Virus record (IMG/VR): IMGVR_UViG_3300037189_006993
Coordinates: 1 to 37,478 of that record
DNA length: 37,478 nt
Reading direction: 5' to 3' (one strand)
Origin: a virus
Shown: piece after piece, positions 15,801-37,478 of the stretch
Position numbering within the stretch: the stretch's first letter is position 1
Layout: every line of letters begins with the position of its first letter
Program-made: the position numbers and the translations under genes
The notes under the pieces: generated by a model
Told to the model about the DNA's origin: nothing
Databases searched by the model: none
Seen by the model: only the letters and a program-made list of their open reading frames with translations

Positions 15801-18800
15801 GAATTATCATCTTTGGATTACATTTGATAACAATGATTGGTCTGTTTTAAGATACAACGAATCGACAGCACTAAAAATTGTAGCTGTTAGTCTAGATGAC
15901 AACGGAGTACGATTACAGTTAAACAGAGTCCACAATTTGTTAGCCGGCGAAATAATCGGTATTACAGAAATTGAAAATCTCACAGGATTTTTCAAAATAC
16001 TTTCGGTAACTTCATCAACAATTTTAGTAGCGTCCGATGCTACTACTGCGCCAGCAATACAGGATAGTACTGCGGCATCTATTGGTATTTTTACTCCATC
16101 TAGATTTAGAAATTATTCAGATCTTGATCTACAAGCCACTGCGATATTAAAACAAAATTCTAAAATTTGGATAGATGATGCCGGTGACAGTCACTGGAAA
16201 GTTTTAGAAAAAATCAAACAATATCGAGATTACGAAATAGAAGATTACGGAATAACCACTCCGTTACATGCCGGTACCTCAGTATTATACATAGATACTC
16301 TCAAGCAGATGATATCTAGTATTCCGGGTTCTGGGTACGTAATGTCTTACTCAGATAAAATTGCAGCAGGTTCGACCGTACTGGGTCTTAAACAGATAAT
16401 TCCCCCTCCTACCGGATTCGAATCGGCAGTATCTGGAGTGTTCGGAGAAGTTCTATCAGTAAGTCCAGATTATAGATGGCTAGCGATAGCATCGCCTCGA
16501 GCAAGCTCAGTGCCAAACAATTTCATGGGAGAACTGACTAGACGAAGCTATCTGGCCGGTGAAGTGGTAATGTTCAATGGCAAGATGTGGAAAGCATTGA
16601 CCAATATTCCTTTACTAGACGACGGCAGTTCTATAAACTTCAGCAGTCAGGATTGGCAACCAGCTACAATAATCGAAGCTAACACTTCGGCAAGAGGCGC
16701 CGGTTATTATGAACAGGGTATGATTACCTTGTATAGATATTTTGAACAACAATGGGAACCCGTATATAGTTTTGTAAGTCCGAGACCTGATGCTAACGAA
16801 AAGTTTGGCAGTGCTGTGTCTATTGGTGTAAGCGGTTCTAAATATTATATGGCTGTTGGAGCCACGGGATCTCTAGGTAATAAAGGTCGAGTTTATATCT
16901 ATTATTACGACGGAACAGCTTGGAGCCATCTGGAAAACACCAAATATTCAGGATTATATAATCCTGGAGCGGTATTTCAAGGAAGCTTTTCTAGTGATAC
17001 ACTGACAGTTAGTTCGATAACTGCCGGTAGAATCACTCTAGGTATGCCAATATCTGGAACAGGTATTCCTCCTGGTACAACTATTACGAGATTTATATCA
17101 GGCACTAGAGAAGGAGTCGGATTATATCAAGTTGATTTTGATGTGACTCCGTCACCAGTAATTATTTCTAGCACTACAATTATCGGGACTCAGATATATC
17201 CCAAAGGCTCCATTGTATGGGCTGAAGGAGATTTATACGAAGCGTTGTACGACAATCAGGGAGATGGTAGTACACTAAGTATTTTATCAAACGAATGGAT
17301 TAAATTAGATCCTGTAGCCACACAATGCAGTCTGCCAGTTTCTGCTGCGATTGATGATGACGGTTCGACACTTTCATCCGGAATACTAACTGCAGATCAT
17401 CTCGCAGAGATAGTCAAGGAAGGTGATCAGTTTGGGTCAAGTATGACTATGAATCGCGATGGTAGTATACTGGTCATAGGAACGCCAATAGGCGACGATG
17501 AATATTTTGAAAATTATAAAGGTAACTGGAGAGAATACGAAGATTATTCAACCGGCGATGTTGTAAAGTATCAAGGAACCTATCATCGTCTAACTGATAT
17601 AGATCCAGATCCAGATTCTGTTACAGTAAGCAAGGGACAGCGACCAGATGACGGGTTGCCTTGGATCAATGTCGGCGACAGCACGTACAAGATCACAGGT
17701 AAGATATTCATCTACCAACGAACCGGTCAGATATATCAACTTAAACAAACGATTACTTCTCAAAATCTTTCAGATTTAAATGATATAGGTACAGAAGAAA
17801 TTATAACCGAAGGAGATAAATTTGGTTATTCTGTAGATATAGATTTGTCCGGAACTGTATTAGTAATCAGCGCACCAATGGCTGATATAAATTTACAGAC
17901 CAACGGAGCAGTTTATGTATTTGAAAAATCTTCTTCAGGATTTGAATTTAGATTAAAACAAAAGTTACAGAGCTACGAGCCCTATACCAATGAATTTTTT
18001 GGTTCTTCAGTATCGATTAGTGGATCTACAGAGCGAATCGCGATCGGTGCAAAAAATTCAGCTTACAGGCTAATAACAAGATTCAGCTCTGGAACCACTT
18101 TCGATAAAAATAAAACACAATTCTCTGAGTCTCAGGGATATCCTGGACAGGTCTATGTCTATGAAAGAAAAGGTGATAGATATTTCTTAGCTGAAAAACT
18201 AGATCCTGATCTAGCAAATAATGAATCGTTTGGACATTCTGTTGACTGTACTGGCTCTGCGATCGCAGTAGGTTCACCTAATTATGAAGTAGACGATGTT
18301 AGAATTGGAATTGCGAGATTATTTAGAAAGATAGATGGAGTTGACAGTTTAAAAACTATTTCAGACGAATCTAAATTGATCGATATTGACAAGATTAAAA
18401 ATATTGAACTTTACGACACACAGAATAATATTAAATTAGGTGATATTGATATTGTAGACGGCTACAAGATGAAAATATTAGGAGTGGCCGATCAAGAAAT
18501 AAAATTTAAAACAGTTTACGATCCGGCAACTTATATCATAGGAACAGATGATCAGACTGTTGATGATCACACTGCATGGTTTGAAAAATATGTAGGACAA
18601 GTGTGGTGGGATCTAAGTAAGGTAAAATTTATCAATTATGAACAATCTGATATTGCTTACAGAATCGGAAACTGGAATGTTCAAGCAGAAGGATCTAGCA
18701 TCGATGTCTACGAATGGATAGAATCTGTTCTACTACCTTCCGAATGGAGCTTGCTTGCAGATACAGTAGAAGGGTTAGCTCAAGGAATATCCGGTCAGCC

Positions 18801-21800
18801 CAAATATCCAGACGACAGTGTTTTAAGCTATAAGATTTTCACTAATCCTACTACTGGATTAGAAGTAGGAACGAAATATTATTATTGGGTAAAAAATAAA
18901 ACTACAATTCCTGCAACCAATAACAGAAAGCTCAGTATAGCTACTATTAGAGATTACATTGATAATCCTATAGGAACCGGAAATCCGTTTGTAGGAGTTA
19001 TTGATGTTGATAAATTTTTATTTTTTAATTTTAATGGAATAATAACTACCGATTCGGTATTATTCAATATTGAATTTAAATCCGACGATAAGGCATTAAA
19101 TCATTATCACAGAGAATATCAATTGCTTACTGAAGAAGTAGCAGATTCCGTTCCTACCGCTTCTATAGAAAGAAAATGGATTGACAGTCTGGCAGGATAT
19201 GATGAAGCTGGTAATGCTGTTCCTGATCCTAAATTAGCACCTAAGCAACGTTATGGTTTAAAGTTCCGTCCTAGACAAAGTATGTTTGTGGATAGTGCTA
19301 AAGCATTAAAAATAGCTATCACTAATATCAATGAAATTTTAAAAATACGCCCCTTTGCAGATCTAATCGATTTTGAATACCTAAATCTCAAAGATGAAAT
19401 ACCCGGTGTAGGCTTAAATCAATATGATCTCGAAGTAGATTCTTTGATAGATTTAGAACAAGTAGGTACAGCTAAAATTAAACAAGCTGAGTTGCGGGCC
19501 AACATCATAGACGGTGAAGTTGACACGATTGATATTATAGATCCGGGATTTGGGTATCGTGTAGCACCATATATCGTGATCGATGGTGACGGTGTTGGCG
19601 CTAAAGCTAATATTACTATCGACGGTCAAGGCCGTGTAGTTACAGCGACGGTTACTATAAAGGGAAGAAAATACATTTCGGCTGTAGTAAAGATACGAGC
19701 ATTTTCTGTGTTGGTGTCCAATGATAACTCTTTAAACAATTTTTGGAGTATCTATAGTTGGGATGACATACGTAAAGGCTTTTATCGAAGCAAGTCTCAG
19801 GGATTCGATACCACACGTTATTGGGAATATACAGATTGGTGGCAGGAAGGTTATGGACCATCTCAGAGAATCGTTAAAGAGATCGAAGGGTTATATGAAG
19901 AACCTGCAGTATCTATACAGCCTGGGGATCTACTTCGAATCAAAGAATATGCCAACGGCGGATGGGCCGTAATAGAAAAAGTAGAAGATGGCCAGGGCAC
20001 ACTATTAGGAAATTATAATCTCGTTGGCAGACAAAGCGGTACTATAGCGATCAAAGATATTTTATATAGTGCTATTTCAGGCGGCATAGGCTACGATAAT
20101 AATGTTGCGTATGATGCTAATTTGTTCGATTTACAGCCAGTCAAAGAGTTGAGAATAATATTTCAGGCAGTCAAAGAAAATATTTTCGTAGATGATCTAA
20201 GAGTTGAATGGAATAAATTATTCTTTAGTTCTGTGAGATATGCACTTTCAGAGCAACAGTATGTTGACTGGACGTTTAAGACCAGTTTTTTGAATGCTAC
20301 TCACAATGTGGGAGATCTTGATCAGCGCCCCACATACAAGAATGATAATCTAGATAGTTTTAGACAATACATTGAAGAAGTTAAACCTTATCGAACCAGT
20401 ATAAGAGAGTATACTAGCCGATATACAGAAATAGAACCAGTAGCAGCAGCCACGACAGATTTTGATCTTCCCCCGGCTTACTCGGCTAGGGATGGCAAGA
20501 TATTGCCAGTGTCTCCGGCCTACAACAGATTTGATGAATATCCATGGAAGAGTTGGTTTGACAACAATGGATGTAGCATCATTGAGATTACAATATCTGA
20601 TGGTGGAGAAAATTATACTTCTGCCCCCACAGTAATTATTGACGGAAATGGAACTTCGGCATCCGCCCAAGCATTCATTTCTAACGGTGCAGTTAGTGGT
20701 ATTAGGGTGTCTAATGCTGGACAAGGTTATACTAAAATACCTACTGTTTCTTTGGTAGGAGGCAATGGTTCCTCTAATAGAACAGCCAAGGCTGCCGCAG
20801 TAATGGGGAATTCTAAGACTAGATCATTTAATCTAGGCATTAAATTTGATCGGATTGAAAAGATAGGAATTTATTCAACTTTTACAAATTCTCAAACGTT
20901 TACTGCTACTGGAAATACTGCGGTTTTTGAATTAGATTTTGCTCCTTCTATAGATAAAAGTAAGATATCTATAACAAAAAATAGTCAGATAGTAATACCT
21001 AACGAATATCAGATCAATCTTTACAGAAGTAGTATTGATACTTATAAATTGATCAAAGGTAAAATAAGATTTTTAACCGCACCTAAAGCCGGTGATGTTA
21101 TAGTAGTCAACTATGAAAAGAATGACGAGTTATTAGATAGCGTAAGTCGTATCCAAAGATATTACGCTCCAACCGCAGGAATGAAAGGCAACGAATTAAA
21201 CCAGTTGATGACCGGCGTTGACTACGGCGGAGTGCAGATACAAGGAACTACCTTCGATGTGACTGGCGGTTGGGATGCGTTACCGTGGTTTACTGATAAT
21301 TGGGATTCTATAGAACCAAATAGCGACTTCTATTATGTTGTCAACGGCCGTATCTACAGAGAATACAATCTAGACAGTACCAGTTACATCAATTATCAAG
21401 CCGGCGAAGTAGTAGAGTTGAACGGGATATTTTACAGGGCCATTGAGGCTAATTTCAACAAGGATCCTATTGAATTTGTTGATATCTGGGAAGAATTGAC
21501 AATATCATTACCTTATGTACCAGAATCTGGACAACCTATCAGTGTTTACATTAAACGCAGTAACGAAACTCGAGCTACTAGAGTAGACGATCCTTATTTT
21601 AATGTCTACGACGGCTCAACAGTTCAGCCCAATGGAAGAGTATCTGCACCAGCAACTGCAATACTGAATACGTTTATCGGTGACGGAGTTTCTAATAGTA
21701 TACCTATTCAAAACTATACTACTCTGTTTGAAGGTGATACTATTATCGTAAGAAAACTAGACAGTGATGGCTCCGTAACTATAACAGACGTGAATCTGTT

Positions 21801-23973
21801 AGATACTAGAATCAGCGGAGGATCATTATCAAACATACACGGTGCATATGTAACAGCCACAGGATTGACTCCTGAAGAAATAGTCATAGATGGAGATAAA
21901 TTTGTAGCTCCAGATCAAGTTCCTGCTCCAGAAGAAAATGTGCCCGGACAAGTGTTAGACAGTCTTAGTATCAAAGTCTGGAACGTCACTAGCCCAGGTG
22001 CCGCTCCATTGCAGAACAAAGTCATAATTTCAGATGGTGTTACTAAAGAGTATGACATTGGATTGACCATAGCAGAATCTAGCTCAGTTCTAGTTTACGT
22101 AGATAAAATCAGGCAAGGTGCATCTCTAGCAGATAGCAGTATCGATTATACTATAAATTATGCTAACAATACCATAGAATTTTTAACCGCACCTGAATTC
22201 GCTAGTATTATAGAAATAATATCAGTGGGTATGGGCGGAATAACATTGTTAGATTATCAGGAATTTACCGCAGACGGCGATACTACATTATTTTTAACCA
22301 AAGCAGTTTATGATCAGGTCACTGATATACTAGTCACAGTAGATGGCGAAGTTTTTGTCACTGGACTAGTGAACAGCAGCGAGTTTATAGATACTAAAAA
22401 TCGTGCAATGGCACAGTTTGGAATTGCACCCGAAGATGGTAGTGTAGTAAAAATAATCTGTTTCGGTTCTTCTGTAGTCAGCGATTCAACTGGATTACCC
22501 TTTATACGTATCAATAGACAGACTGTGATCTATGATGGCAGCACTCGAAATATAGACCTTGATAGATTTATAGATTTAGGTAGATCTTCTCCTTTGAGTT
22601 CGATGATAGTCGAAGTAAACGGAGAGGTTTTAGAAAGCGTTGATACTCATTATGCTGTCTACGATGGTACTAATAATCAAATAGTTATAGCGACTGATCC
22701 TAATCAACCATTTGGTGTAGTTACCAGCGGATTTATTAAAGTTTATATCAATAATGTTCTACAGAGATTTGTTATAGATTATACATTCGACGGTAACACA
22801 AATATAGTATCAATATCTTCGAGCAGACTGACTATAGGTGATGTTATCAAGATAGAGAATAATTATGCAGTGAAATATTCTATAGACAATAATAATTTAG
22901 TTTTAGATCCTTCCTTGGTGTTATCTATAAATGATGTTATAGAAATAACTTGGTTTTCTGAATATCCAACTATGGATATGATAACTGATGAATATACTGG
23001 TGGAAAAGTAAATTATCTACTGAGTAGAACTCCGTTAGATATAAATTATATCTGGATTTACAAAAATGGAACTAGATTGACTCGAGGATTAGATTACACT
23101 CTAAGTTTGCCGAGATCTGTTGTATATCTTACTGAAGAGACTACAGAGTTAGATAGAATTAGAATTGTACAATTTTCTAATATAGTTTATCAGCAACCAA
23201 AGGCCTTTGAAATATTCAAAGACATGTTGAATAACTACCATTACAAACGATATAGCAGAAATAATAAAATTACCTTAGTTAAAGATCTTTATTATTATGA
23301 TACTACGATAGAAGTTTCAGATTCTAGTCTGTTGACTGATCCTATTCCTAGTAGAAACATACCGGGAGTGATTTCTGTCAATAATGAAAGAATAGAATAT
23401 ATGCAAAAGATTGGAAATGTTTTGTCACAGCTAAGAAGAGGCAGCCTCGGAACAGGCATTGCAGAACTTCATGTTAGCGGTAGTTATCTTGTTGATGTAG
23501 GAGCAGCTGATACGCTGCCTTATGTAGAAACACAAGAAACTATTGATTTTTTCAGTGACGGCAGTTCTTTAATAATAGGTCCTTTAGAATTTGTTCCATC
23601 TAAATCTATTAGAACTTCGTGGTACAGGGAGACGATTCCTTCTACACACGGTCCCTGCGATGAAATTGAAGTATTTGTAGCAGGTCGTAGACTTCGTAAG
23701 AATCCCATCGATGTATGGAATAACAGTATCTCAGCTAGTAGTCCCTATGGAGACGAGCAACAAGAGGCAGAGTTTTCTGTCGACGGGGGCACAGCCGCTG
23801 TTAGATTGACCCAGACAGTACCGGCAGGAACTAAAATAGTGATCATAAGAAGACAGGGCAGAATTTGGTACGAACGAGGCCTAGCCACGGCTAGCAGAGG
23901 CGTATCGCTGCTTTCTAATGAAACACCGATAGCCCAATTCATAGCTAAGAAAGGGTCAGAATTACCTGAATAA
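9898..23973 (+). CDS. Giant 4691-residue modular baseplate/virion protein (gp7 position)
   Basis: One uninterrupted reading frame of 14.1 kb, taking more than a third of the window. It follows gp6, where T4 has gp7 (1032 residues, the peripheral wedge protein), but I see no direct gp7 similarity. The N-terminus (about 1-150: FYPDSNLPIRKTVDLLPEVF, HYSWNPPIDWDKFVNYREYY) and a Trp-rich block at about 1148-1206 (PGYWRGVYSWFYDTDRPH, EMLGFSEKPTWWEDEYGPAP) resemble giant structural proteins of aquatic T4-like phages. Other modules include seven carbohydrate-binding-like motifs of the pattern Y-x-x-GD-x-V-x-Y-x-G-x-x-Y/W-x-A (about 222-264, 1466-1507, 1724-1765, 2211-2258, 2434-2471, 2544-2595, 3828-3868). 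An FG-GAP beta-propeller spans about 2182-2800, and GxGY-type strand repeats occur near 3204-3250, 3562-3585 and 3605-3623. The C-terminal third is a chain of small beta modules. Near 4440-4540 is the block NNERIEYMQKIGNVLSQLRR. The start is 2 bases after gp6. It is probably a peripheral baseplate or receptor-contact scaffold; role inferred. Confidence 0.7.
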   Translation: MASNFYPDSNLPIRKTVDLLPEVFKTEANTKFMEAVVDPLVQPGLLEKTVGYIGRRYGKTYNLSDVYLDTDQTLRSRYQLEPGVVVKKDGKIENFYDYLDLKNQLKFFGNFDENDSKITDQEHYSWNPPIDWDKFVNYREYYWVPEFPPSVEIKGQSQRVVSTYKVSLGLTDTYIFSPDGFTNNPTLTLYRGQTYKFQINAPGNGMIIRTAIDTGTLLYNPNLPYSKDQFVIFDDKLWKAKQAIPVTDGSSIDENSQDWEFVDDVYQTSALDYNTGVENNGIVNGTLTFTVPFNAPDVLFYQSAVEPNRFGRFLIDDIDSNTKIDIDKEILGKKSYTSSNGVTFTNGLVVTFSGQVIPEKYSRNNSKWLVEGVGSEITLIDLDLLEISPLEKSSPIEILFDNSGFDTEPFDDAATYPAAKDYITINRSSRDRNAWSRYNRWFHRSVLDFAHSFSESSFEALETSRAKRPIIEFKPNIQLFNHGSSAKLAVDFIDNFTSDIFSTIEGSSGYIIDGEFLFNGARLLVTADTDSTANNRIYVVNFIKHNSNNLQISLTRADDHEPISGESVLVKRGKNSKGLMYYFDGTSWKASQKKTRTQQPPKFDVFDSDGVSFGDPETYPVSTFSGSEIVSYKLGSGPIDTELGFSLSYLNIDNVGDILFDYDFDSDEFIYKIDTQILTKKVDTGFYKTTNDQAYYNGWKLLDPDYAQPILETIAVDKDTNQIISSAIDWKNTSTTEIKKILIYKNGLLFKGSYSRNENTFVFEDQFKENDVVVLKVFTDAVPDQGYYEIPLGLEKNPLNTEIESFTLGQASDHVSTGLDLINDFVGIYPGSSNLRDLDDYQNLCKRFLKHSAPSPVAAALICDKSINIIKSIQQAKKSYTDFKNNFVDLAYKLYYDQQPLDFVDVILDEIGRTKNPQSPYAGSDMVGNGAFSELRYEVEDEGIKTFALSEKFDLDTLSSRAVYVYINNQQLLHGSDYVFDSTFGFVRLTVSLVEGDVIIIREYVSTAINFIPATPTKLGLYKKYKPMKFLDDTYVEPKEVIQGHDGSITVAYGDFRDDVLLELETRIYNNIKQHYDESVFDIDKILGGYYKTGLYNKKDLDNIVSVDFLKWIADTNIDYVNNVFFDSQDSFTYTYSNMTNREGTQNLPGYWRGVYSWFYDTDRPHRCPWEMLGFSEKPTWWEDEYGPAPYTSNNLILWEDLRDGIVRQGSRTGTYDRYKRPTLTDHIPVDSDGNLLSPVDSGLASNFSLINNQGDFNLGDVSPVEYAWRSSSEWPFAVCSALCMLKPFEFITDNFNRSMITTNKINQTIHKSTGVFTKIEDLKYDPIIDSVSGLCVYVADYLKTQTAPLTLISDKISNIDVNLTSRISGFVDAAQQKYILDSKNPKSSTSSIFIPQENYDIYFNQSSPFNTISYSGVVIEKIEGRGWKLGGYDSLYPYFNYYEAVASQSDPLISVGGISENFLEWNSEKFYGNGVLVRYSGSYYRSLKSHTAAASFDSNLWKKLPGLPLKNAVEAFNRRNFNRLRLKKLNYGTIFSNLQAVVDFLLGYQEYLKSIGFVFDRYDPELKVAQDWTTAAKEFMFWSKHNWSGGSLLTLSPSAQSVVLNLQLGVADNLLDSFYDYQVLKNDGTPLKPQFINVSRTFKNITITTTNTNDGIYFIKINLILKEHVVIFNDRTVFNDVLYDKPTGYRQERIKARGFRTVDWDGDYTSPGFLFDNVDIQIWQPFTDYNLGDIVAYKSYNWTSLTNQLGSAEFIDANWTKLDSSPTKSLIANFDYRINQFEDYYEVDTPGVGSSQRDLARHAVGYQQREYLQNLVEDEVSQFRLYQGFIRDKGTNNSIVKIFDKLSRTADDSVVLKEEWAFKVGELGGIDQTAEIEFRVKKDDLALNPQPVLLSTQARSQINQDQYLRIYSDDYTISPNSFDFAINPTKYYDKITRSAGYTNLNQVDIILKTRDDLLSLKIDDIKENYHLWITFDNNDWSVLRYNESTALKIVAVSLDDNGVRLQLNRVHNLLAGEIIGITEIENLTGFFKILSVTSSTILVASDATTAPAIQDSTAASIGIFTPSRFRNYSDLDLQATAILKQNSKIWIDDAGDSHWKVLEKIKQYRDYEIEDYGITTPLHAGTSVLYIDTLKQMISSIPGSGYVMSYSDKIAAGSTVLGLKQIIPPPTGFESAVSGVFGEVLSVSPDYRWLAIASPRASSVPNNFMGELTRRSYLAGEVVMFNGKMWKALTNIPLLDDGSSINFSSQDWQPATIIEANTSARGAGYYEQGMITLYRYFEQQWEPVYSFVSPRPDANEKFGSAVSIGVSGSKYYMAVGATGSLGNKGRVYIYYYDGTAWSHLENTKYSGLYNPGAVFQGSFSSDTLTVSSITAGRITLGMPISGTGIPPGTTITRFISGTREGVGLYQVDFDVTPSPVIISSTTIIGTQIYPKGSIVWAEGDLYEALYDNQGDGSTLSILSNEWIKLDPVATQCSLPVSAAIDDDGSTLSSGILTADHLAEIVKEGDQFGSSMTMNRDGSILVIGTPIGDDEYFENYKGNWREYEDYSTGDVVKYQGTYHRLTDIDPDPDSVTVSKGQRPDDGLPWINVGDSTYKITGKIFIYQRTGQIYQLKQTITSQNLSDLNDIGTEEIITEGDKFGYSVDIDLSGTVLVISAPMADINLQTNGAVYVFEKSSSGFEFRLKQKLQSYEPYTNEFFGSSVSISGSTERIAIGAKNSAYRLITRFSSGTTFDKNKTQFSESQGYPGQVYVYERKGDRYFLAEKLDPDLANNESFGHSVDCTGSAIAVGSPNYEVDDVRIGIARLFRKIDGVDSLKTISDESKLIDIDKIKNIELYDTQNNIKLGDIDIVDGYKMKILGVADQEIKFKTVYDPATYIIGTDDQTVDDHTAWFEKYVGQVWWDLSKVKFINYEQSDIAYRIGNWNVQAEGSSIDVYEWIESVLLPSEWSLLADTVEGLAQGISGQPKYPDDSVLSYKIFTNPTTGLEVGTKYYYWVKNKTTIPATNNRKLSIATIRDYIDNPIGTGNPFVGVIDVDKFLFFNFNGIITTDSVLFNIEFKSDDKALNHYHREYQLLTEEVADSVPTASIERKWIDSLAGYDEAGNAVPDPKLAPKQRYGLKFRPRQSMFVDSAKALKIAITNINEILKIRPFADLIDFEYLNLKDEIPGVGLNQYDLEVDSLIDLEQVGTAKIKQAELRANIIDGEVDTIDIIDPGFGYRVAPYIVIDGDGVGAKANITIDGQGRVVTATVTIKGRKYISAVVKIRAFSVLVSNDNSLNNFWSIYSWDDIRKGFYRSKSQGFDTTRYWEYTDWWQEGYGPSQRIVKEIEGLYEEPAVSIQPGDLLRIKEYANGGWAVIEKVEDGQGTLLGNYNLVGRQSGTIAIKDILYSAISGGIGYDNNVAYDANLFDLQPVKELRIIFQAVKENIFVDDLRVEWNKLFFSSVRYALSEQQYVDWTFKTSFLNATHNVGDLDQRPTYKNDNLDSFRQYIEEVKPYRTSIREYTSRYTEIEPVAAATTDFDLPPAYSARDGKILPVSPAYNRFDEYPWKSWFDNNGCSIIEITISDGGENYTSAPTVIIDGNGTSASAQAFISNGAVSGIRVSNAGQGYTKIPTVSLVGGNGSSNRTAKAAAVMGNSKTRSFNLGIKFDRIEKIGIYSTFTNSQTFTATGNTAVFELDFAPSIDKSKISITKNSQIVIPNEYQINLYRSSIDTYKLIKGKIRFLTAPKAGDVIVVNYEKNDELLDSVSRIQRYYAPTAGMKGNELNQLMTGVDYGGVQIQGTTFDVTGGWDALPWFTDNWDSIEPNSDFYYVVNGRIYREYNLDSTSYINYQAGEVVELNGIFYRAIEANFNKDPIEFVDIWEELTISLPYVPESGQPISVYIKRSNETRATRVDDPYFNVYDGSTVQPNGRVSAPATAILNTFIGDGVSNSIPIQNYTTLFEGDTIIVRKLDSDGSVTITDVNLLDTRISGGSLSNIHGAYVTATGLTPEEIVIDGDKFVAPDQVPAPEENVPGQVLDSLSIKVWNVTSPGAAPLQNKVIISDGVTKEYDIGLTIAESSSVLVYVDKIRQGASLADSSIDYTINYANNTIEFLTAPEFASIIEIISVGMGGITLLDYQEFTADGDTTLFLTKAVYDQVTDILVTVDGEVFVTGLVNSSEFIDTKNRAMAQFGIAPEDGSVVKIICFGSSVVSDSTGLPFIRINRQTVIYDGSTRNIDLDRFIDLGRSSPLSSMIVEVNGEVLESVDTHYAVYDGTNNQIVIATDPNQPFGVVTSGFIKVYINNVLQRFVIDYTFDGNTNIVSISSSRLTIGDVIKIENNYAVKYSIDNNNLVLDPSLVLSINDVIEITWFSEYPTMDMITDEYTGGKVNYLLSRTPLDINYIWIYKNGTRLTRGLDYTLSLPRSVVYLTEETTELDRIRIVQFSNIVYQQPKAFEIFKDMLNNYHYKRYSRNNKITLVKDLYYYDTTIEVSDSSLLTDPIPSRNIPGVISVNNERIEYMQKIGNVLSQLRRGSLGTGIAELHVSGSYLVDVGAADTLPYVETQETIDFFSDGSSLIIGPLEFVPSKSIRTSWYRETIPSTHGPCDEIEVFVAGRRLRKNPIDVWNNSISASSPYGDEQQEAEFSVDGGTAAVRLTQTVPAGTKIVIIRRQGRIWYERGLATASRGVSLLSNETPIAQFIAKKGSELPE

Positions 23974-30417: not shown

Positions 30418-32160
30418 ATGGCATATCAAGTAGATAGATTTAATGGAACATTTTTAGTATCTGTAGATGATGGTACCATTGATACTACCACCGATTTACG
30501 ATTCGTAGGTAAAAATTATGCGGGATACGGTGAAGTACAGAACGAAAATTTCCTACATCTTTTAGAAAACTTTTCTAATACATCTGCACCACCTAAGGCT
30601 GTCATTGGACAGATTTGGTATGACAGCGGAAATAAAAAATTACGATTCTATGACGGTACAAGATTTCGAACAGCCAGCGGAGCAGAAATAGGTCCATCTG
30701 CACCATCCGGTGCGCAAACTGGTGATTTTTGGTTTGATACTGGTGCAGAACAGTTATATGCTTGGAACGGAACAGAATATGTTCTAATCGGTCCAGAAAC
30801 TGCACCTGATCTCGGAGCTAGCGCAGTAGTTTCACAGGTAGTTAAAGATACCCTAGGAACAAATCATACCATAGTAAAGCTGCAGTCTGGCGGCGATGTG
30901 ATGTCCATAGTTAGTAAAGATGCATTTACTTTAGACAGTTCGATAAATCCTATTACTGGATTTACAGCGATCAAGAAAGGTCTAACGTTAGTCAACACCA
31001 ATGCTACTACTGGAGTTACATCCACAGACCATTATTATTGGGGAACTGCTAGCAATGCTGCTAGATTGGGCGGATACCTAGCATCTGAATATATTAGAAC
31101 AGGTGAAGTTTCTTTTACAGAAGAAATTCACTTCAATGACAGCGGACTTACAGTAGGCGGTGACAATCCATCACCAACTAATGATTTAGTAATTCGAATT
31201 GAAAACGGTGACGAGCCAGTTATTATTTCAAGACTAGGAAATCCTCTTACCTTCCGTGTAAGAGTCAGCGACAGCGATTTTAGAGAAGTATCTTGGACCA
31301 CTACAGGACTAGTTCCTGGATCTAATAATTTTTATTCTCTAGGTACAGCATCAAACAGATGGTCTAATATTCACTCTACAACATTTACAGGTAGTGTTAC
31401 TGGTAATCTTACTGGAAACACTACTGGTATTCATACTGGTACAGTTGTAGGTAATGTTACTGGCGATCTTACAGGAAACTCTACAGGAACACATACTGGC
31501 AACGTTGTCGGAAACGTAGCTGGAACAGCCACAAACGCCCTGACACTAAACAGTCTAGCCGGCGAACAGGCAGCGGTAGCAACATCGATAGCAGTTAGAG
31601 ATAGCAATGCTAATATAACAGCTACGAGATTTATCGGTGTTGCAGATAAAACCAATAGATTAAGAATAGATGATTCTGCTGTCGATACTGATGCATATAA
31701 ATCAGCAAAGACTACTGCTGCAATAGATACCATAGCCGCTAGAGACAGTTCGGGAAATCTAACAGCCAATGTATTCAATGGAACTGCCACAGCAGCTCAA
31801 TATGCAGACCTAGCTGAAAAATATCTCACAGATCAAGAATATACTACAGGTACAGTGGTAACAGTGGGGGGTTCCGCCGAAGTTAGAGCGTCGGTGTTCG
31901 GCGATAGAGCTTTAGGAGTTGTCAGCGCCAATCCTGCGTACATGATGAACAAGGATTTAGAAGGCGGAACATATATTGCACTTAAAGGTCGTGTGCCAGT
32001 TCGTGTAGTTGGTGGTATTAAAAAAGGTGACAGGCTGATAGCCAGCGATAATGGCTGCGCTGTGGTTGCAGCCTTCCATAGTTTTCCAGATGTTTTTGCT
32101 ATAGCTTTGGAAACTAATAGTGATACCGCAGAAAAAATTATAGAAGCAGTGATATTATAA
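30418..32160 (+). CDS. Tail fibre protein 4, shared N-terminus, NxTG repeats, YADLAE C-terminus
   Basis: A 580-residue paralogue, closest in architecture to fibre 3. The shared N-terminal module (about 1-195) has GYGEVQNENFLHLLENF, GQIWYDSGNKKLRFYDGTRF and GDFWFDTGAEQLYAWNGTEY. The shaft has a GNLTGNTTG-type repeat, including two tandem 20-residue units (60 bases each, 31396-31455 and 31456-31515) that differ mainly by conservative changes. From Tyr462 the C-terminal module (YADLAEKYLTDQEYTTGTVV, ALGVVSANPAYMMN, IALKGRVPVRVVGGIKKGDR) matches fibre 3; at the DNA level both share GCAGACCTAGCTGAAAA. GGAG is 7 bases before the ATG, behind its own late-type promoter. Host-binding fibre is likely; exact target unknown. 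Confidence 0.78.
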   Translation: MAYQVDRFNGTFLVSVDDGTIDTTTDLRFVGKNYAGYGEVQNENFLHLLENFSNTSAPPKAVIGQIWYDSGNKKLRFYDGTRFRTASGAEIGPSAPSGAQTGDFWFDTGAEQLYAWNGTEYVLIGPETAPDLGASAVVSQVVKDTLGTNHTIVKLQSGGDVMSIVSKDAFTLDSSINPITGFTAIKKGLTLVNTNATTGVTSTDHYYWGTASNAARLGGYLASEYIRTGEVSFTEEIHFNDSGLTVGGDNPSPTNDLVIRIENGDEPVIISRLGNPLTFRVRVSDSDFREVSWTTTGLVPGSNNFYSLGTASNRWSNIHSTTFTGSVTGNLTGNTTGIHTGTVVGNVTGDLTGNSTGTHTGNVVGNVAGTATNALTLNSLAGEQAAVATSIAVRDSNANITATRFIGVADKTNRLRIDDSAVDTDAYKSAKTTAAIDTIAARDSSGNLTANVFNGTATAAQYADLAEKYLTDQEYTTGTVVTVGGSAEVRASVFGDRALGVVSANPAYMMNKDLEGGTYIALKGRVPVRVVGGIKKGDRLIASDNGCAVVAAFHSFPDVFAIALETNSDTAEKIIEAVIL

Positions 32161-32169
32161 GGATCTAAA

Positions 32170-33093
32170 ATGCCAGTCGGTGATTTAATTTCAACAACAG
32201 ATTACAATACGATTCGAACTACTATAACTCAAATAGTTGGCACCGGAGCAGCCAGTCGCGGATACGGACAGGCAATAAATGCTACTTCGGCAGTTACCAC
32301 AGCGAATCAGGTTACTAAAGCTCAATGGGATCTTTTGAGATATGATATCTATAATGCACTACTACATCAAACTGGATCTGTACCTAGTATCAACACAGTG
32401 GCGGTCGGTGATGTTGTGAGATTTGGTGTAGCTTATCCTAACTCACAGTATAGCACATTAGCTACAACCGCAGACACTAATAGATTTAACGTAGGAACTG
32501 GACAATTTCTTGAAAATCTAAATGTAGCATCGAGAACTACCACAGACGGATGGTCGAGCCAGGCCTATTGCGACATTACTGTGACTTTTGGTACAGCAGA
32601 GCAGGCTAGATATTTCTTCAATAGCGGCGGAAAAGTTAAAATAACAACTTCTAGAACTGGAGGTTCTGGAACTTCTCAAAATTCATCCTGGAGTTCAGTA
32701 CTATCCGGAGCAGGCACACGAAATTATGAAGGTATCGGTTATTATTCTTTAAACACTTCATTTGCTACTTATTATACTGCTACAGCTACTGGTGTTTATT
32801 CAGCTAATACTTATAGGTTACAGGCCAAAGTCAATGTTGCAGATAATTCTTCAGGAGCAGCTACAATATTGACTATCAGGGTCCTATTGACAGATCCCTA
32901 TACAGACCCACCAGTAATAGGCCCATCGGGACCAGTAGCTCCTTCTGGACCGTTTCCACCAAGCGACGGAGTTGACGGAACATTGACTACTCGTGTTGAT
33001 GAAGTAAAAGCCACGGGTTTTTTACAACCAACAGGCGCAGCTTGGTCTATGACCTCACCGACTTTCTCAGCAGGATCCTGGGTACGTTCATAA
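32170..33093 (+). CDS. Fibre-like virion protein with Pro-rich segment
   Basis: A 307-residue protein. Residues about 5-75 hold a helical-looking start with the pattern YNTIRTTITQIVGTGAASRG, YGQAINATSAVT and TKAQWDLLRYDIYNALL, recurrent in structural proteins of aquatic T4-like phages. A beta-rich middle follows (FFNSGGKVKITTSRTGGSGT, then QNSSWSSVL and YRLQAKVNVADNSSGAATIL). Near residues 245-270 is a Pro/Gly-rich stretch (GPSGPVAPSGPFPPSDGVDG). It ends in a small strand pair (LQPTGAAWSMTSPTFSAGSW). It lacks the N-terminal module of the four upstream fibres. AAGGA is 6 bases before the ATG. It probably is a virion structural or fibre-tip protein; a precise role cannot be assigned. Confidence 0.6.
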   Translation: MPVGDLISTTDYNTIRTTITQIVGTGAASRGYGQAINATSAVTTANQVTKAQWDLLRYDIYNALLHQTGSVPSINTVAVGDVVRFGVAYPNSQYSTLATTADTNRFNVGTGQFLENLNVASRTTTDGWSSQAYCDITVTFGTAEQARYFFNSGGKVKITTSRTGGSGTSQNSSWSSVLSGAGTRNYEGIGYYSLNTSFATYYTATATGVYSANTYRLQAKVNVADNSSGAATILTIRVLLTDPYTDPPVIGPSGPVAPSGPFPPSDGVDGTLTTRVDEVKATGFLQPTGAAWSMTSPTFSAGSWVRS

Positions 33094-33150: not shown

Positions 33151-33501
33151 ATGGATTCTAGATTAGAAAAAGCACTGGCCTTTTCAAATTATAATAAAAC
33201 TCTAAATCTTAAACGTACCACGCTGAAAGAAAAATCAGACGCTAAACTCGTATTGGCGTATAAAGGTGGTATATTTAAAGCAGAAAGATCATTGATCGTA
33301 TTTGCGCAGATGCTAATAGATCAGGGTCGAGCAGATAATATTCCCTTATTAGACATCAATGACAATCCAATATTAGTAGAAGATCTCAATGAGTTTAAAA
33401 ATTTGTTATTGGACAAATATTTCGATGTAACTCTGGAGTATTACAGAGAATATCAAAAAATTAAACGAAGTCGTTCAGTGGAAACATTGATAGATCTATG
33501 A
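33151..33501 (+). CDS. Small conserved phage protein, possible fibre chaperone
   Basis: A 116-residue hydrophilic protein, mostly helical by eye: MDSRLEKALAFSNYNKTLNL, then KGGIFKAERSLIVFAQMLID, NIPLLDINDNPILVEDLNEF and YREYQKIKRSRSVETLIDL. I recall similar small proteins next to fibre or glycosyltransferase genes in aquatic T4-like phages, but know no function. There is no signal peptide or membrane segment. GGAGA lies 5 bases before the ATG, behind its own late-type promoter and hairpin. Its stop overlaps the next start by four bases (ATGA), so translation of the first glycosyltransferase is probably coupled to it. By position it might be a fibre-assembly chaperone or a partner of the glycosyltransferases. 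Both are inference. Confidence 0.6.
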   Translation: MDSRLEKALAFSNYNKTLNLKRTTLKEKSDAKLVLAYKGGIFKAERSLIVFAQMLIDQGRADNIPLLDINDNPILVEDLNEFKNLLLDKYFDVTLEYYREYQKIKRSRSVETLIDL

Positions 33502-34349
33502 ATAAGGGTGTAGTATTAATCGTTCATGATAACGGAACTGTAGATTATTCTGCTCTTGCGATCCTTTCTGCTAGATTAGTAAAAAAACATCTTAAAGTTC
33601 CAGTTAGTATCATAACAGACGAATATACTTTAGAAAATTTAAAGCAAAAAATAAATTCAATTGAATCATTGTATGACAAGGTAATTCTGACCGTACCGCC
33701 AGTAAAAAATAATAAACGTGTTATCTTTCATGGTGACAACTATAAGTCTATGTCGTTTATGAATCAGACTAGGTCTTCGATCTGGGAATTGACACCATAT
33801 GAAAGAACTTTAATGATTGATGTAGATTATTTAATTTTTTCAGATAGTTTATCTAACTATTGGCAATCTGATGAGGATTTCCTTATAGCATCCAGTGCCT
33901 CGGAAGTGTTAAACAAGCGATTAGGAGTTTCAGACAAACGTATCTCAGACACAGGTCCTCATATGTACTGGGCCACTACGGTAATGTTTACTAAAAATTC
34001 AAGAACAAAAATATTATTTGATCTAATAGAGTATATCAAAGAAAATTACTTGTATTTTTCTGAAATTTATAAATTTGATACCAAGACATTTAGAAATGAT
34101 ATTGCTTTTAGTTTAGCCAAACATATTATAGACGGGTTTAGTTCTCCTAAGGGGCAATGCCTCCCCCCAGTACTAACCATGTTTGATAAGGATTTATTAC
34201 TCGATGTTAAAAATCAATCTTTAAAATTTATAGTACATGATTGGGATCAGGGAGATATTTTAATTGATATTGCTGATAGAGATATTCATTTCATCAACAA
34301 ACAAACTATTATAGATAATTATTCTTCTTTAATGGAATTAGCAGAATGA
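33498..34349 (+). CDS. Putative GT-A-type glycosyltransferase
   Basis: A 283-residue protein with the layout of a GT-A sugar transferase. Its N-terminus has a Rossmann-like strand and helix (GVVLIVHDNGTVDYSALAIL, then LKVPVSIITDEYT). A core block YERTLMIDVDYLIF carries a DxD-like motif (Asp108, Asp110), which in this fold binds a divalent metal and the sugar nucleotide. Downstream are HMYWATTVMFTKNSRTKI and a C-terminal KFIVHDWDQGD. No membrane segment is seen, so it should work in the cytoplasm. It overlaps both neighbours by four bases (ATGA). The donor and acceptor are unknown. The family resembles the glycosyltransferase-like proteins found beside fibre genes in aquatic phages; a role in modifying virion or host-surface sugars is inferred. 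Confidence 0.6.
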   Translation: MNKGVVLIVHDNGTVDYSALAILSARLVKKHLKVPVSIITDEYTLENLKQKINSIESLYDKVILTVPPVKNNKRVIFHGDNYKSMSFMNQTRSSIWELTPYERTLMIDVDYLIFSDSLSNYWQSDEDFLIASSASEVLNKRLGVSDKRISDTGPHMYWATTVMFTKNSRTKILFDLIEYIKENYLYFSEIYKFDTKTFRNDIAFSLAKHIIDGFSSPKGQCLPPVLTMFDKDLLLDVKNQSLKFIVHDWDQGDILIDIADRDIHFINKQTIIDNYSSLMELAE

Positions 34350-35182
34350 ATTTTGGGTATTTGATAATAGCATCTAAAAACGATTCTTATGATTATGTCA
34401 AGATGGCATATCTTCTGGCTTTAACTATCAAACTGACACAAAAAGAAGGATATGATCAAATAGCTTTAGTTACTGATGATTATGATGTTGATGCTTTTAA
34501 ATCTCCGTGGGTGTTTGACCGCGTTATAAAAACTTCCTTAAAAGAAGGTTGGGATTCTAGAATAGACATGCAGGATCTTTCTCCGTGGGACGCTACAGTA
34601 TGTCTAGATGCAGATATGATTTTTCTGAGAGATATCAGTCATAATATTAAACATTTTTTAGATAATCACGATTTGTACATATCCAATCGAGCCTATACCT
34701 ATCGAGGTGAATTAGTTACTTCTGATTTTTATAGAAAAACTTTTACTAAAAATGGCCTTCCGAATTTATATTCGTATTTTACATTTTTTAAAAAAAATAA
34801 ATTTATATCTAATGAATTTTTTAACTTGTGTAAAGAAATCAATGAATATAAAGAAGAATTTAAAAATTTATTTTTATCTGAGCATATACCAAAAGATTTA
34901 GGTACAGATGAAATTTTTGCACTGGCTTCTAAGATACTAGATATAGATTCCGAAATTGCTTATCCTTTATGTTTTCCTAGGGTAGTGCATTTAAAACCGA
35001 TGATACAAAATTGGCAAGATCCTGGAGGTCCAGTTACTAATAGTGTTGGTTTTTATTTAAATCTTGATGCAGAATTAAAAATCGGAAATTATCAACAGTC
35101 TGATATTATACATTATCAAGAAAAACATTTGGCCAATGATGAAACCATAAGCATAATGGAGAATGCACTATGGAAGAAGTAA
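34346..35182 (+). CDS. Putative GT8-like glycosyltransferase
   Basis: A 278-residue protein with a second GT-A layout. It begins GYLIIASKNDSYDYVKMAY and carries YDQIALVTDDYD, then WDATVCLDADMIFLRDI, whose DAD (Asp88, Asp90) sits on a short strand as in GT8-type enzymes. Later text is LGTDEIFALASKILDID and CFPRVVHLKPMIQNWQDPGG, where the VVHLKP segment is like the HxxGxxKP region of GT8. The C-terminus has DIIHYQEKH. It lacks a membrane anchor. The start overlaps the preceding stop (ATGA). It is more T- and A-rich than the baseplate genes, with long homopolymer runs near 34780-34810. The enzyme class is likely; substrate is not assignable. Confidence 0.62.
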   Translation: MNFGYLIIASKNDSYDYVKMAYLLALTIKLTQKEGYDQIALVTDDYDVDAFKSPWVFDRVIKTSLKEGWDSRIDMQDLSPWDATVCLDADMIFLRDISHNIKHFLDNHDLYISNRAYTYRGELVTSDFYRKTFTKNGLPNLYSYFTFFKKNKFISNEFFNLCKEINEYKEEFKNLFLSEHIPKDLGTDEIFALASKILDIDSEIAYPLCFPRVVHLKPMIQNWQDPGGPVTNSVGFYLNLDAELKIGNYQQSDIIHYQEKHLANDETISIMENALWKK

Positions 35183-35778
35183 TGGATTTTGATCTATGGC
35201 TAGAATCTCAAAAAAATCTCAAACCTAAATTTTATCTGATCTATAACGAATCTGGATTAGTAACAGGAATATATCCTGAATCGGCCGCCTCTGAAATATC
35301 AAATAAAATAGAATTATCTGAAGAACTGCGATTTCAGTTAGATTCCGGAGAATCTAGAATAGATTCATATAGAGTAGACATTGTTACAAAGCAACTAGTA
35401 ATATTAGAAAGTATAAAGTTTTTTCCTTTATTGATTCGAGCCACTGATATGTCTTACAGCGGCGATAAAAATTTTGAGGTATATATAACATATAACCGAC
35501 AAGAATCTCTAGCTGTGATAGAGCTATCATCTAATCTCGGAGGTACAAGACAGGATCAAACAGAAAGAAGGATGTTAGATATTCATCCCGAACTAACGAT
35601 GAGATTATATTTTACAGATTATAATGATCCTAATATACTACATGATAAGATTGAGATACGAGTACAGGATTTACTAAAGGATCGTGTATCTAAAAAAATA
35701 GAATTGCTTCCAGAAAGATTTGGAGTTTTTACCAAACGTCTATTTGATAGATATGGATTTGAAATAAATGAAAATTAG
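35182..35778 (+). CDS. Unknown protein between glycosyltransferases
   Basis: I prefer the ATG at 35182, which overlaps the upstream TAA (TAATG) and follows the purine-rich ribosome-site-like GGAAGAAG. An in-frame ATG at 35170 would add four residues. The product is 198 residues. I do not recognise a family. It starts MDFDLWLESQKNLKPKFYLI, then YNESGLVTGIYPES, and has a middle domain of alternating strands (YSGDKNFEVYITYNRQESLA). An RRMLDIHPELTMRLYF block leads to a basic C-terminal helix (LLPERFGVFTKRLFDRYGFE). No catalytic motif, signal peptide or membrane segment is visible. It lies between two sugar-transferase genes and overlaps the next by 11 bases, so it probably acts with them, perhaps as a partner or regulator. 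Function unknown. Confidence 0.6.
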   Translation: MDFDLWLESQKNLKPKFYLIYNESGLVTGIYPESAASEISNKIELSEELRFQLDSGESRIDSYRVDIVTKQLVILESIKFFPLLIRATDMSYSGDKNFEVYITYNRQESLAVIELSSNLGGTRQDQTERRMLDIHPELTMRLYFTDYNDPNILHDKIEIRVQDLLKDRVSKKIELLPERFGVFTKRLFDRYGFEINEN

Positions 35779-36667
35779 TGAATTTGATTTTATATTTTTA
35801 AGTTACGATGAGCCTAACGCTGATCTGCACTATGCTGACCTTTGTAATAAAGTTCCTTGGGCCAAGCGTGTTCATGGAGTAAAAGGATCAGACGCTGCCC
35901 ATAAATCTGCTGCAGAACTTTCTGAAACCGATTGGTTTGTAAGTGTTGATGCTGATAACATCGTCGATCTTGATTTTTTAGATCAAGAAATAGAATTCAA
36001 TGATGATATAAAAGTTTTTAGCTGGACTGGCAGAAATCAGCTCAATGGGCTTCGTTACGGAAACGGCGGACTAAAATTGTGGAACAAACAATATGTACTC
36101 GATATGAAAAGCCACGAAGCTGCCGATACAAAAAATTCCGAAGTTGATTTTTGTTGGGAATCAGTTTATAGACAATATCCCGAAAGTTACAGCAAAGTAG
36201 TTATAACAGGCAGTCCTTTCCAAGCATGGAGAGCAGGATTCCGCGAAGGTGTGAAAATGACTTTGGTAGATGGAATTAAAGTTGAACCCTATGAAATAAA
36301 AAATCGTGTATGGTGGCATAATCTTCATAGACTAAGAATATGGTCAACTGTAGGTACACATGATGAAAATGGAATTTATGCTGTATATGGTGCAAGATTG
36401 GGTACCTGGTTAGCAAATTGCACAGATTGGAATTATGTAGATGTTCGAGATTTTGAAATGCTTAAAGGTATATATTTTCAGTACGGTAAGCCCTACGAAG
36501 ATGTAGACAGTGATGGACTAGTTGAAGAAATTAAATCTCTCGGTGAAAAGATAAAATTAAATCTGGGGTTAGATTGGCCGTGGCTCGATGCAGACCAAAG
36601 CAGTTACACTTTAGGTTTATATACAGAAACACTGAAAATGGCACAGACCTATTATAGAGTTCACTAA
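35768..36667 (+). CDS. Glycosyltransferase-like protein (FLSYDEP/DAD family)
   Basis: A 299-residue protein with a recurrent aquatic-phage domain: FIFLSYDEPNADLHYADLCN, KRVHGVKGSDAAHKSAAEL, WFVSVDADNIVDLDFLD and NGLRYGNGGLKLWNKQYVLD. The DAD (Asp61, Asp63) and the adjacent hydrophobic strand suggest a GT-A fold, though the sequence is far from classical families. A later region has SPFQAWRAGFREGVKMTL. The N-terminal half of the next gene repeats the same text, so the two are tandem paralogues. Start ATG at 35768 overlaps the upstream gene by 11 bases. The stop overlaps the next start (TAATG). No signal peptide or membrane segment. Sugar transfer is inferred from fold pattern, not proven. Confidence 0.58.
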   Translation: MKISEFDFIFLSYDEPNADLHYADLCNKVPWAKRVHGVKGSDAAHKSAAELSETDWFVSVDADNIVDLDFLDQEIEFNDDIKVFSWTGRNQLNGLRYGNGGLKLWNKQYVLDMKSHEAADTKNSEVDFCWESVYRQYPESYSKVVITGSPFQAWRAGFREGVKMTLVDGIKVEPYEIKNRVWWHNLHRLRIWSTVGTHDENGIYAVYGARLGTWLANCTDWNYVDVRDFEMLKGIYFQYGKPYEDVDSDGLVEEIKSLGEKIKLNLGLDWPWLDADQSSYTLGLYTETLKMAQTYYRVH

Positions 36668-37478
36668 TGTACGAAATTATATTTTTAAGTAATAATGAGC
36701 CTTATAGCGACAATCATTGGAATAAATTAAAATCTAGATTTCCGACAGCTATCAGGATCAACGGCATACAGGGAATTCATGAAGCTCATCAAGAAGCAGC
36801 ACGTCGAGTTATGACATCTAATTTTTGGGTAGTTGATGCTGATGCTGTGATCGTGGACGAATTTAATTTCGATTATGAAATTTCTAAATACGACACGAAT
36901 TCTGTACACATATGGCACAGTAGAAATCCCGTAAATGATTTAGAATATGGATATGGTGGAGTAAAACTTTTTCCTAGAAGTGCAGTTCTCAATTCTGAAA
37001 AAAATTCTATAGACTTTACTACCGGTTTAGAAGTCGGAGTAAAAATAATTCCCGAGGTAGCGAACATTACAGTATTTAATTACAATGAATTCTCAACATG
37101 GAGGTCAGCATTTAGAGAGTGTGTAAAATTGTTATCAAGTAAAATAAAAAATTCTAACGAAATTGAAAATAATAGAAGATACGAAATTTGGGCTACGACG
37201 GGCAAAGACAGACAACACGGTGAGTATTCTATTAAAGGATCTAAGGATGCAAAAATTTTTGTAGATCAATTTATCGACGATTTCGAAATGTTAAAAAAAA
37301 TCAACGATTTCGACTGGTTAGAAAATTATTTTCATATATCATCGAATATAAGATCTCAAAAAAATACAGTATGTGCAGTTCCCTGGATGCATCTCAACTT
37401 TGAACCAGCAGGTAATGTTATTCCTTGTTGTCTAACATCAACATTTAATTATAATGCCGGGGATCTAAGCACACAGAC
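36667..37478 (+). CDS. Glycosyltransferase-like and SPASM/twitch radical SAM fusion, cut at right edge
   Basis: Open from ATG at 36667 (TAATG overlap with the preceding stop) to the window end, 270 codons, incomplete. Residues 1-160 repeat the preceding protein: YEIIFLSNNEPYSDNHW, INGIQGIHEAHQEAARR, NFWVVDADAVIVDEF (Asp57, Asp59), DLEYGYGGVKLFPRSAVL and EFSTWRSAFRECVKLL. Residues about 195-233 are a linker. Then comes TVCAVPWMHLNFEPAGNVIP followed by CC and LTSTFNYNAGDL, the iron-sulphur-binding twitch/SPASM start (C-x(3)-PW-x(10)-G-x(3)-PCC) of phage-type radical SAM proteins. In that family a radical SAM core with CxxxCxxC follows, which would lie beyond the window. Coupling to the three preceding genes suggests a shared pathway. 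The fusion is directly visible in one frame; the full enzyme and its substrate are not. Confidence 0.68.
   Translation, partial: MYEIIFLSNNEPYSDNHWNKLKSRFPTAIRINGIQGIHEAHQEAARRVMTSNFWVVDADAVIVDEFNFDYEISKYDTNSVHIWHSRNPVNDLEYGYGGVKLFPRSAVLNSEKNSIDFTTGLEVGVKIIPEVANITVFNYNEFSTWRSAFRECVKLLSSKIKNSNEIENNRRYEIWATTGKDRQHGEYSIKGSKDAKIFVDQFIDDFEMLKKINDFDWLENYFHISSNIRSQKNTVCAVPWMHLNFEPAGNVIPCCLTSTFNYNAGDLSTQ

Follow-up and report, generated by a model that had tools for sequence, protein, structure and literature searches.

Introduction

In marine and freshwater T4-like phages, many genes for radical SAM proteins and glycosyltransferases lie beside the tail fibres, and among open-licence PMC papers no paper was found that explains this arrangement. 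SPASM enzymes modify amino-acid side chains in RiPPs and in sulfatase maturation. Among the closest described systems is that of the pelagimyophages, in which a variable tail-fibre region, rich in glycosyltransferases and with radical SAM cassettes, is presented as a host recognition cluster (PMC7029224).

The DNA analysed here, called the window, is the whole of a 37.5-kb IMG/VR virus record with T4-like baseplate genes on the + strand. Its last open reading frame had been noted, from the sequence alone, as a glycosyltransferase-like domain fused to the start of a SPASM/twitch radical SAM domain, and this observation is confirmed by the complete ORF of a second contig.

Results

The window and its gene cluster

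The features of the window are listed in Table 1. Among the matches listed, identity between the baseplate wedge protein and its counterparts from isolated phages does not exceed about 36%, so that no close cultured relative is present among them. Isolated phage genomes likewise gave no match to the window fragment, to paralogue A or to the GT8 gene, and the radical SAM half was found there at only 25% identity, in Vibrio phages K566/K567. By analogy with the pelagimyophages, the large protein encoded at 9898-23973 may be the counterpart of VrlC.

The region 33151-37478, 3' of the tail-fibre-type genes, is a run of small, almost overlapping genes, in which the stop codon of paralogue A overlaps the start codon of the fused gene (TAATG). 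This region may be read as a host recognition cluster, as in pelagimyophages (PMC7029224), and the genes in 30418..33093, just upstream of the glycosyltransferase cluster, are candidates for the substrate or the context of the fused enzyme. The GT8 profile A4, built from 29 relatives, matches glycogenin (E 2e-7). The T4-type late promoter TATAAATA occurs 0 times in the whole window, with about 6 occurrences expected by chance, and its absence therefore says nothing about expression.

Table 1. Coordinates of the features in the window, including the domains and motifs of the fused gene.
Feature	Position	Strand	Basis or remark
gp6-type baseplate wedge gene	6500-9895	+	
Single ORF, 4691 aa, virion structural protein	9898-23973	+	PHROG 10938
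Tail-fibre-type gene	30418-32160	+	PHROG tail fibre match for 30418-32157, E 7e-12
Conserved gene directly after the tail-fibre-type gene	32170-33093	+	no PHROG match for 32170-33090
116-aa gene, head of the glycosyltransferase cluster	33151..33501	+	conserved in 31 loci; no PHROG match
Second GT8-type gene of the cluster	33498..34349	+	conserved position; profile
GT8-type (glycogenin-like) glycosyltransferase gene	34346..35182	+	profile; conserved position
About 200-aa conserved gene in the cluster	35170..35778	+	22 loci; without significant family match
Paralogue A, 299 aa, GT-A-like family with C-terminal extension	35768..36667	+	BLASTP, alignment A1
Fused gene, 5' part, 270 codons	36667..37478	+	complete gene of 639 codons in L002:5001-6920 and L003:5001-6920
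Predicted GT-A-fold domain, residues 1-222	36667..37332	+	AlphaFold2, Foldseek PDB, HMM E 2e-90
DxD motif, Asp57-Ala58-Asp59	36835..36843	+	each Asp kept in 182/183 non-redundant homologues, phage and bacterial
Linker, residues 223-235	37333..37371	+	low model confidence; no stop in L002-L005, L007, L035
Start of N-terminal twitch (half-SPASM) domain; Cys236, Cys254/255	37372..37478	+	Pfam SPASM, NCBIfam NF033640

Extent and integrity of the fused gene

The ORF that starts at 36667 stays open to the end of the window, which truncates the gene at residue 270. Its continuation was found by scanning viral contigs, in L002 (IMGVR_UViG_3300032304_001513), a contig from another sample that differs from the window at none of the 812 shared bases, and in L003, which differs at 15 of 812. 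In both contigs the ORF runs on in frame and yields a 639-aa protein. The rightward extension that the original prediction had proposed as a check thus gave the expected radical SAM core: in the L002 protein, residues 352-359 read CNFKCRSC and residues 412-415 read GGEP. No stop or frame break lies between the domains. The paralogy with the preceding protein was also right, while its range was not: it had been placed at residues 1-160, and BLASTP aligns residues 2-212 (33% identity, E 4e-32). The Cys-Pro-Trp signature reported from residue 236 onward does mark the start of the twitch/SPASM domain, though the wording was loose, the sequence being CAVPWMHLNFEPAGNVIPCC (C-A-V-P-W).

Fused genes, each in one frame, are present in L002-L005, L007 and L035. 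An assembly artefact or a misread frame was ruled out by the identity of L002 over 812 bases and by the in-frame genes of L003, L004, L005, L007 and L035. Comparison between fused genes revealed purifying selection on both halves and on the linker, with dN/dS of about 0.04-0.10 in most pairs; in the recombinant pair L007/L035, the GT half gives 0.21. The gene L035:4035-6929 is a mosaic, whose N-terminal repeats and first ~120 GT-domain residues share 80-99% identity with the unfused L008/L009 type and whose remainder is 88-100% identical to the fused L007; natural recombination is a likelier source of this mosaic than chimeric assembly. The full-length model of the fused protein reached a pTM of 0.61, and the relative placement of the domains in it is accordingly unreliable.

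The N-terminal GT-A-like domain

Fold prediction, which had been suggested with the original observation, was carried out on residues 1-222 with 46 relatives as input, and AlphaFold2 returned a model with pLDDT 92.6 and pTM 0.87. The best Foldseek matches of this model in the PDB are mainly GT-A-fold proteins (E 5.6e-5 to 1e-3), which points to a GT-A fold, with TM-scores of only about 0.4. The top match by E-value is HddC, a nucleotidyltransferase and not a glycosyltransferase, and it is followed by ArnC, ppGalNAc-T1, SunS, RmlT, TarP and WrtF. The domain contains a DxD motif (Table 1), which probably binds metal and nucleotide-sugar, and Arg150 and Trp175 are found in 183/183 homologues, and Glu11, Asn90 and Glu151 in 182/183.

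None of the Pfam, PHROG and NCBIfam models, the named Pfam glycosyltransferase families included, matched residues 1-222, so the label 'glycosyltransferase' rests on the fold, the DxD motif and the company of the gene. Relatives of the domain were found in phages, Streptomyces, Photorhabdus and Bdellovibrionota. In Streptomyces noursei (L150), the GT-like gene, whose protein has no Pfam match, stands between a GT4-type and a GT1-type gene, and a Glyco_tranf_2_4 gene comes next, as shown in Salinispora (L094); in Photorhabdus it stands between a GT4-type gene and GT2 genes. Fused forms occur as well: the partner of the domain is Glyco_tranf_2_4 in Dyadobacter and a UDPGT/GT28-type domain in Paraburkholderia. 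On the basis of its fold, its motif and these bacterial relatives, which lie among or are fused to glycosyltransferase genes, we treat the N-terminal domain as an unclassified GT-A-like family of presumed glycosyltransferase activity.

In L085 (Photorhabdus asymbiotica), L094 and L150, a single GT-like gene lies within uncharacterised glycosyltransferase operons, with overlaps of 1-4 bp in the actinobacteria. Truncated repeats that correspond to the middle of the GT-like domain and have no DxD precede the full copy in L008, L031, L034 and L035, and bring the total to as much as about 1,220 aa. Fusions of the two paralogous GT-like domains, A with B, are present in L077:3051-4637, L079:7131-8681 and L213:5053-7725.

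The radical SAM half

Taken by itself, the window offers weak evidence for the second domain, since its fragment scores 21.5 bits with Pfam SPASM (E 3e-4), exactly the cut-off, and covers no more than the first 35 of the N_Twi_rSAM positions. In the complete protein, Pfam SPASM reaches 47.5 bits against the same cut-off of 21.5, which places the twitch/half-SPASM domain in that family, and residues 233-633 match the N_Twi_rSAM model (NF033640) at positions 2-397 of 398 with 355.2 bits, the curated cut-off being 170 bits. By these profile scores, residues 233-633 belong to the N_Twi_rSAM radical SAM proteins. Pfam Radical_SAM gives 27.1 bits, slightly below its cut-off of 29.5.

The intact CxxxCxxC motif is formed by Cys352, Cys356 and Cys359, and the twitch domain, with the further cysteines Cys297 and Cys300 in the L002 protein, lies N-terminal to it. 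Cysteines 236, 254, 255, 297 and 300 of the twitch domain and 352, 356 and 359 of the core are invariant in 26 relatives. A partial TIM barrel is predicted, as the model matches viperin, DesII, BlsE, MoaA and anSME in Foldseek (E 2e-5 to 1e-3) and also SuiB, and among solved structures a profile of the twitch segment matches the twitch domain of BtrN (E 1.8e-4). A viperin-like antiviral enzyme was considered and rejected, since the protein scores 28.4 bits with NF038283 (viperin), whose cut-off is 180. An N_Twi_rSAM protein of 735 aa, which has about 300 additional residues, is encoded at L076:2731-4938, immediately behind a GT-like gene.

Linkage of the two halves and recurrence of the fusion

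The gene order is shared by about 30 contigs: a tail gene, the 116-aa gene, two GT8 genes, the gene of about 200 aa, A and then B/radical SAM. The trio of A, B and radical SAM occurs in three arrangements, with B and radical SAM fused, with B followed by radical SAM or with radical SAM followed by B. The halves also occur as separate genes side by side, in many phages, where they sometimes overlap by a few bases, and in some bacteria. The N_Twi_rSAM family is present in 61/78 loci that were found with the GT-like domain alone, against 4/120 control loci (Fisher p 3e-30), two of which also contain the GT-like domain. The control loci are matches of an unspecific junction DNA pattern over viral contigs, and the comparison is a rough one, as this pattern does not sample loci at random and related phages enter the counts repeatedly. 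The N_Twi_rSAM family often occurs with no nearby GT-like gene (L040-L073), and in Actinobacteria and Photorhabdus the GT-like domain has no radical SAM partner; thus, neither half strictly requires the other. In L049:6562-7278, an aspartyl/asparaginyl beta-hydroxylase gene adjoins radical SAM genes (Pfam E 2e-10).

In an initial tree, built from the radical SAM half, all fused genes formed one group, which fitted a single origin of all phage fusions. A further scan added L354/L355, a 981-aa fusion that lies behind structural-type genes, as read from the ORFs, and whose radical SAM half is nested among the unfused L056/L060; with L354 in the dataset, the single origin was rejected (p-AU 0.0016), and L354/L355 is a separate fusion that drew on a different radical SAM lineage. 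A fusion of reverse order is present in the Oligoflexia MAG L083, with a radical SAM-SPASM part of another radical SAM type first and the GT-like domain last, and its neighbours are a uvrA-like gene and further radical SAM genes. The GT-like and radical SAM domains have therefore been fused on at least three separate occasions. The recurrence in diverged phages, in L354/L355 and in reverse order in L083 shows that the fusion is not an artefact.

The next gene downstream in L002 (6901-8823) is also a fusion, of a ~310-aa domain and a second radical SAM domain, and its halves are separate adjacent genes in L055 (6262-7194 and 7187-8116).

Discussion

The fusion, the identities of its domains, the conservation of their motifs, the recurrence of the fusion and the gene linkage were computed directly. 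Recurrent fusion and side-by-side genes suggest that the two domains work together on one product. The original prediction had gone further and proposed coupled chemistry in one protein. The part that stands is the joining of a GT-A-like domain with a twitch radical SAM domain and their action in one pathway, as the genomic evidence of recurrent fusion, conserved adjacency and the glycosyltransferase neighbours and fusions of the bacterial relatives says; the catalytic activity, the shared substrate, the type of reaction and the target we infer.

We give a probability of roughly 0.5 to the whole of the following explanation, in which the product of the gene, in an uncultured T4-like phage, is an enzyme of two domains that would couple sugar transfer with radical modification in the synthesis of a host-recognition glycan. 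The GT half would bind a nucleotide-sugar at Asp57/Asp59, and the radical SAM half would abstract hydrogen from the sugar or from a sugar-bearing product. By analogy with BtrN-type enzymes, the twitch cluster, one auxiliary Fe-S cluster, might accept or relay an electron, with oxidation or epimerisation as the outcome. The same sugar would be transferred or positioned by the GT half, together with the adjacent GT8 genes and paralogue A, and the product would most likely be a glycan for host recognition. The phage's own tail-fibre proteins would be the first choice of target and the host surface glycan the second, a guess from the position of the gene. That we are dealing with a new enzyme class that arose several times, in which a GT-A domain and a twitch radical SAM domain on one chain would couple radical remodelling of a sugar with its transfer, and with which phages would diversify their adhesins or the surface of their host, is offered tentatively, as a possibility.

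The radical chemistry could also act on protein. The twitch radical SAM half would then modify a side chain of a virion protein and the GT half would glycosylate the same protein, the sugar not being the radical substrate. SPASM and twitch enzymes often modify peptides (PMC9012708), SuiB and anSME are among the full-length fold matches, the genes adjoin tail-fibre genes, and some of the clusters with radical SAM proteins of this family also include aspartyl/asparaginyl hydroxylase genes. However, neither a precursor peptide nor a leader-binding domain could be recognised. Viperin, DesII and BlsE, whose substrates are nucleotides or sugars, are likewise among the best full-length fold matches, and the twitch segment matches by sequence BtrN, a carbohydrate dehydrogenase; we consider this explanation rather unlikely. 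A fusion without chemical coupling, in which a stop codon was lost, joint translation was convenient and the halves act on different products, would have needed little, since the halves are adjacent in many phages and at times overlap by a few bases, and the gene that follows in L002 also joins two genes that are separate neighbours elsewhere. Convenience predicts neither the linkage conserved across three gene orders nor at least three separate fusions, one of which lies on a bacterial contig, has its domains the other way round and involves a different type of radical SAM protein; we consider an uncoupled fusion improbable.

The low TM-scores to true GT-A enzymes and the truncated copies without DxD that precede the full domain in L008, L031, L034 and L035 would suit an N-terminal domain that is a nucleotide- or sugar-binding relative of GT-A proteins with no transferase activity, a scaffold or acceptor binder beside a radical SAM half that alone is catalytic. 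The full copy, however, retains the DxD motif and further polar residues in 182-183 of the 183 homologues, as an active site would, and we regard a non-catalytic domain as very improbable. Of these readings, we prefer the coupling of sugar transfer with radical modification.

The original prediction knew of no characterised example of a fusion between a glycosyltransferase and a radical SAM protein, and none was found in open-licence PMC papers. A single protein with both domains, fused separately and repeatedly, is a compact object for testing whether phage radical SAM enzymes act on sugars. The finding also points to an unclassified GT-A-like family common to phages, Streptomyces, Photorhabdus and predatory bacteria.

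Like the window, the host recognition cluster of pelagimyophages brings together glycosyltransferases, radical SAM proteins and tail fibres, and a search of the paper (PMC7029224) found no mention of a GT-radical SAM fusion such as the window gene. With the GT-A glycosyltransferases (GT2 and related; SunS, TarP, WrtF, ppGalNAc-T), residues 1-222 have the fold match and the DxD motif in common, and they differ in that no Pfam GT family matches their sequence and in a TM of about 0.4. Residues 233-633 match the whole of the N_Twi_rSAM model NF033640 and have, as it does, the twitch before the CxxxCxxC core, whereas the model, of about 398 positions, has no GT-like domain; no characterised NF033640 member was found in open-licence PMC papers. 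The twitch segment of the fused protein aligns with that of the 2-deoxy-scyllo-inosamine dehydrogenase BtrN (E 1.8e-4), which suggests an auxiliary cluster that accepts electrons. BtrN has its twitch behind the radical SAM core, whereas in the fused protein it precedes the core and is accompanied by a GT-A-like domain.
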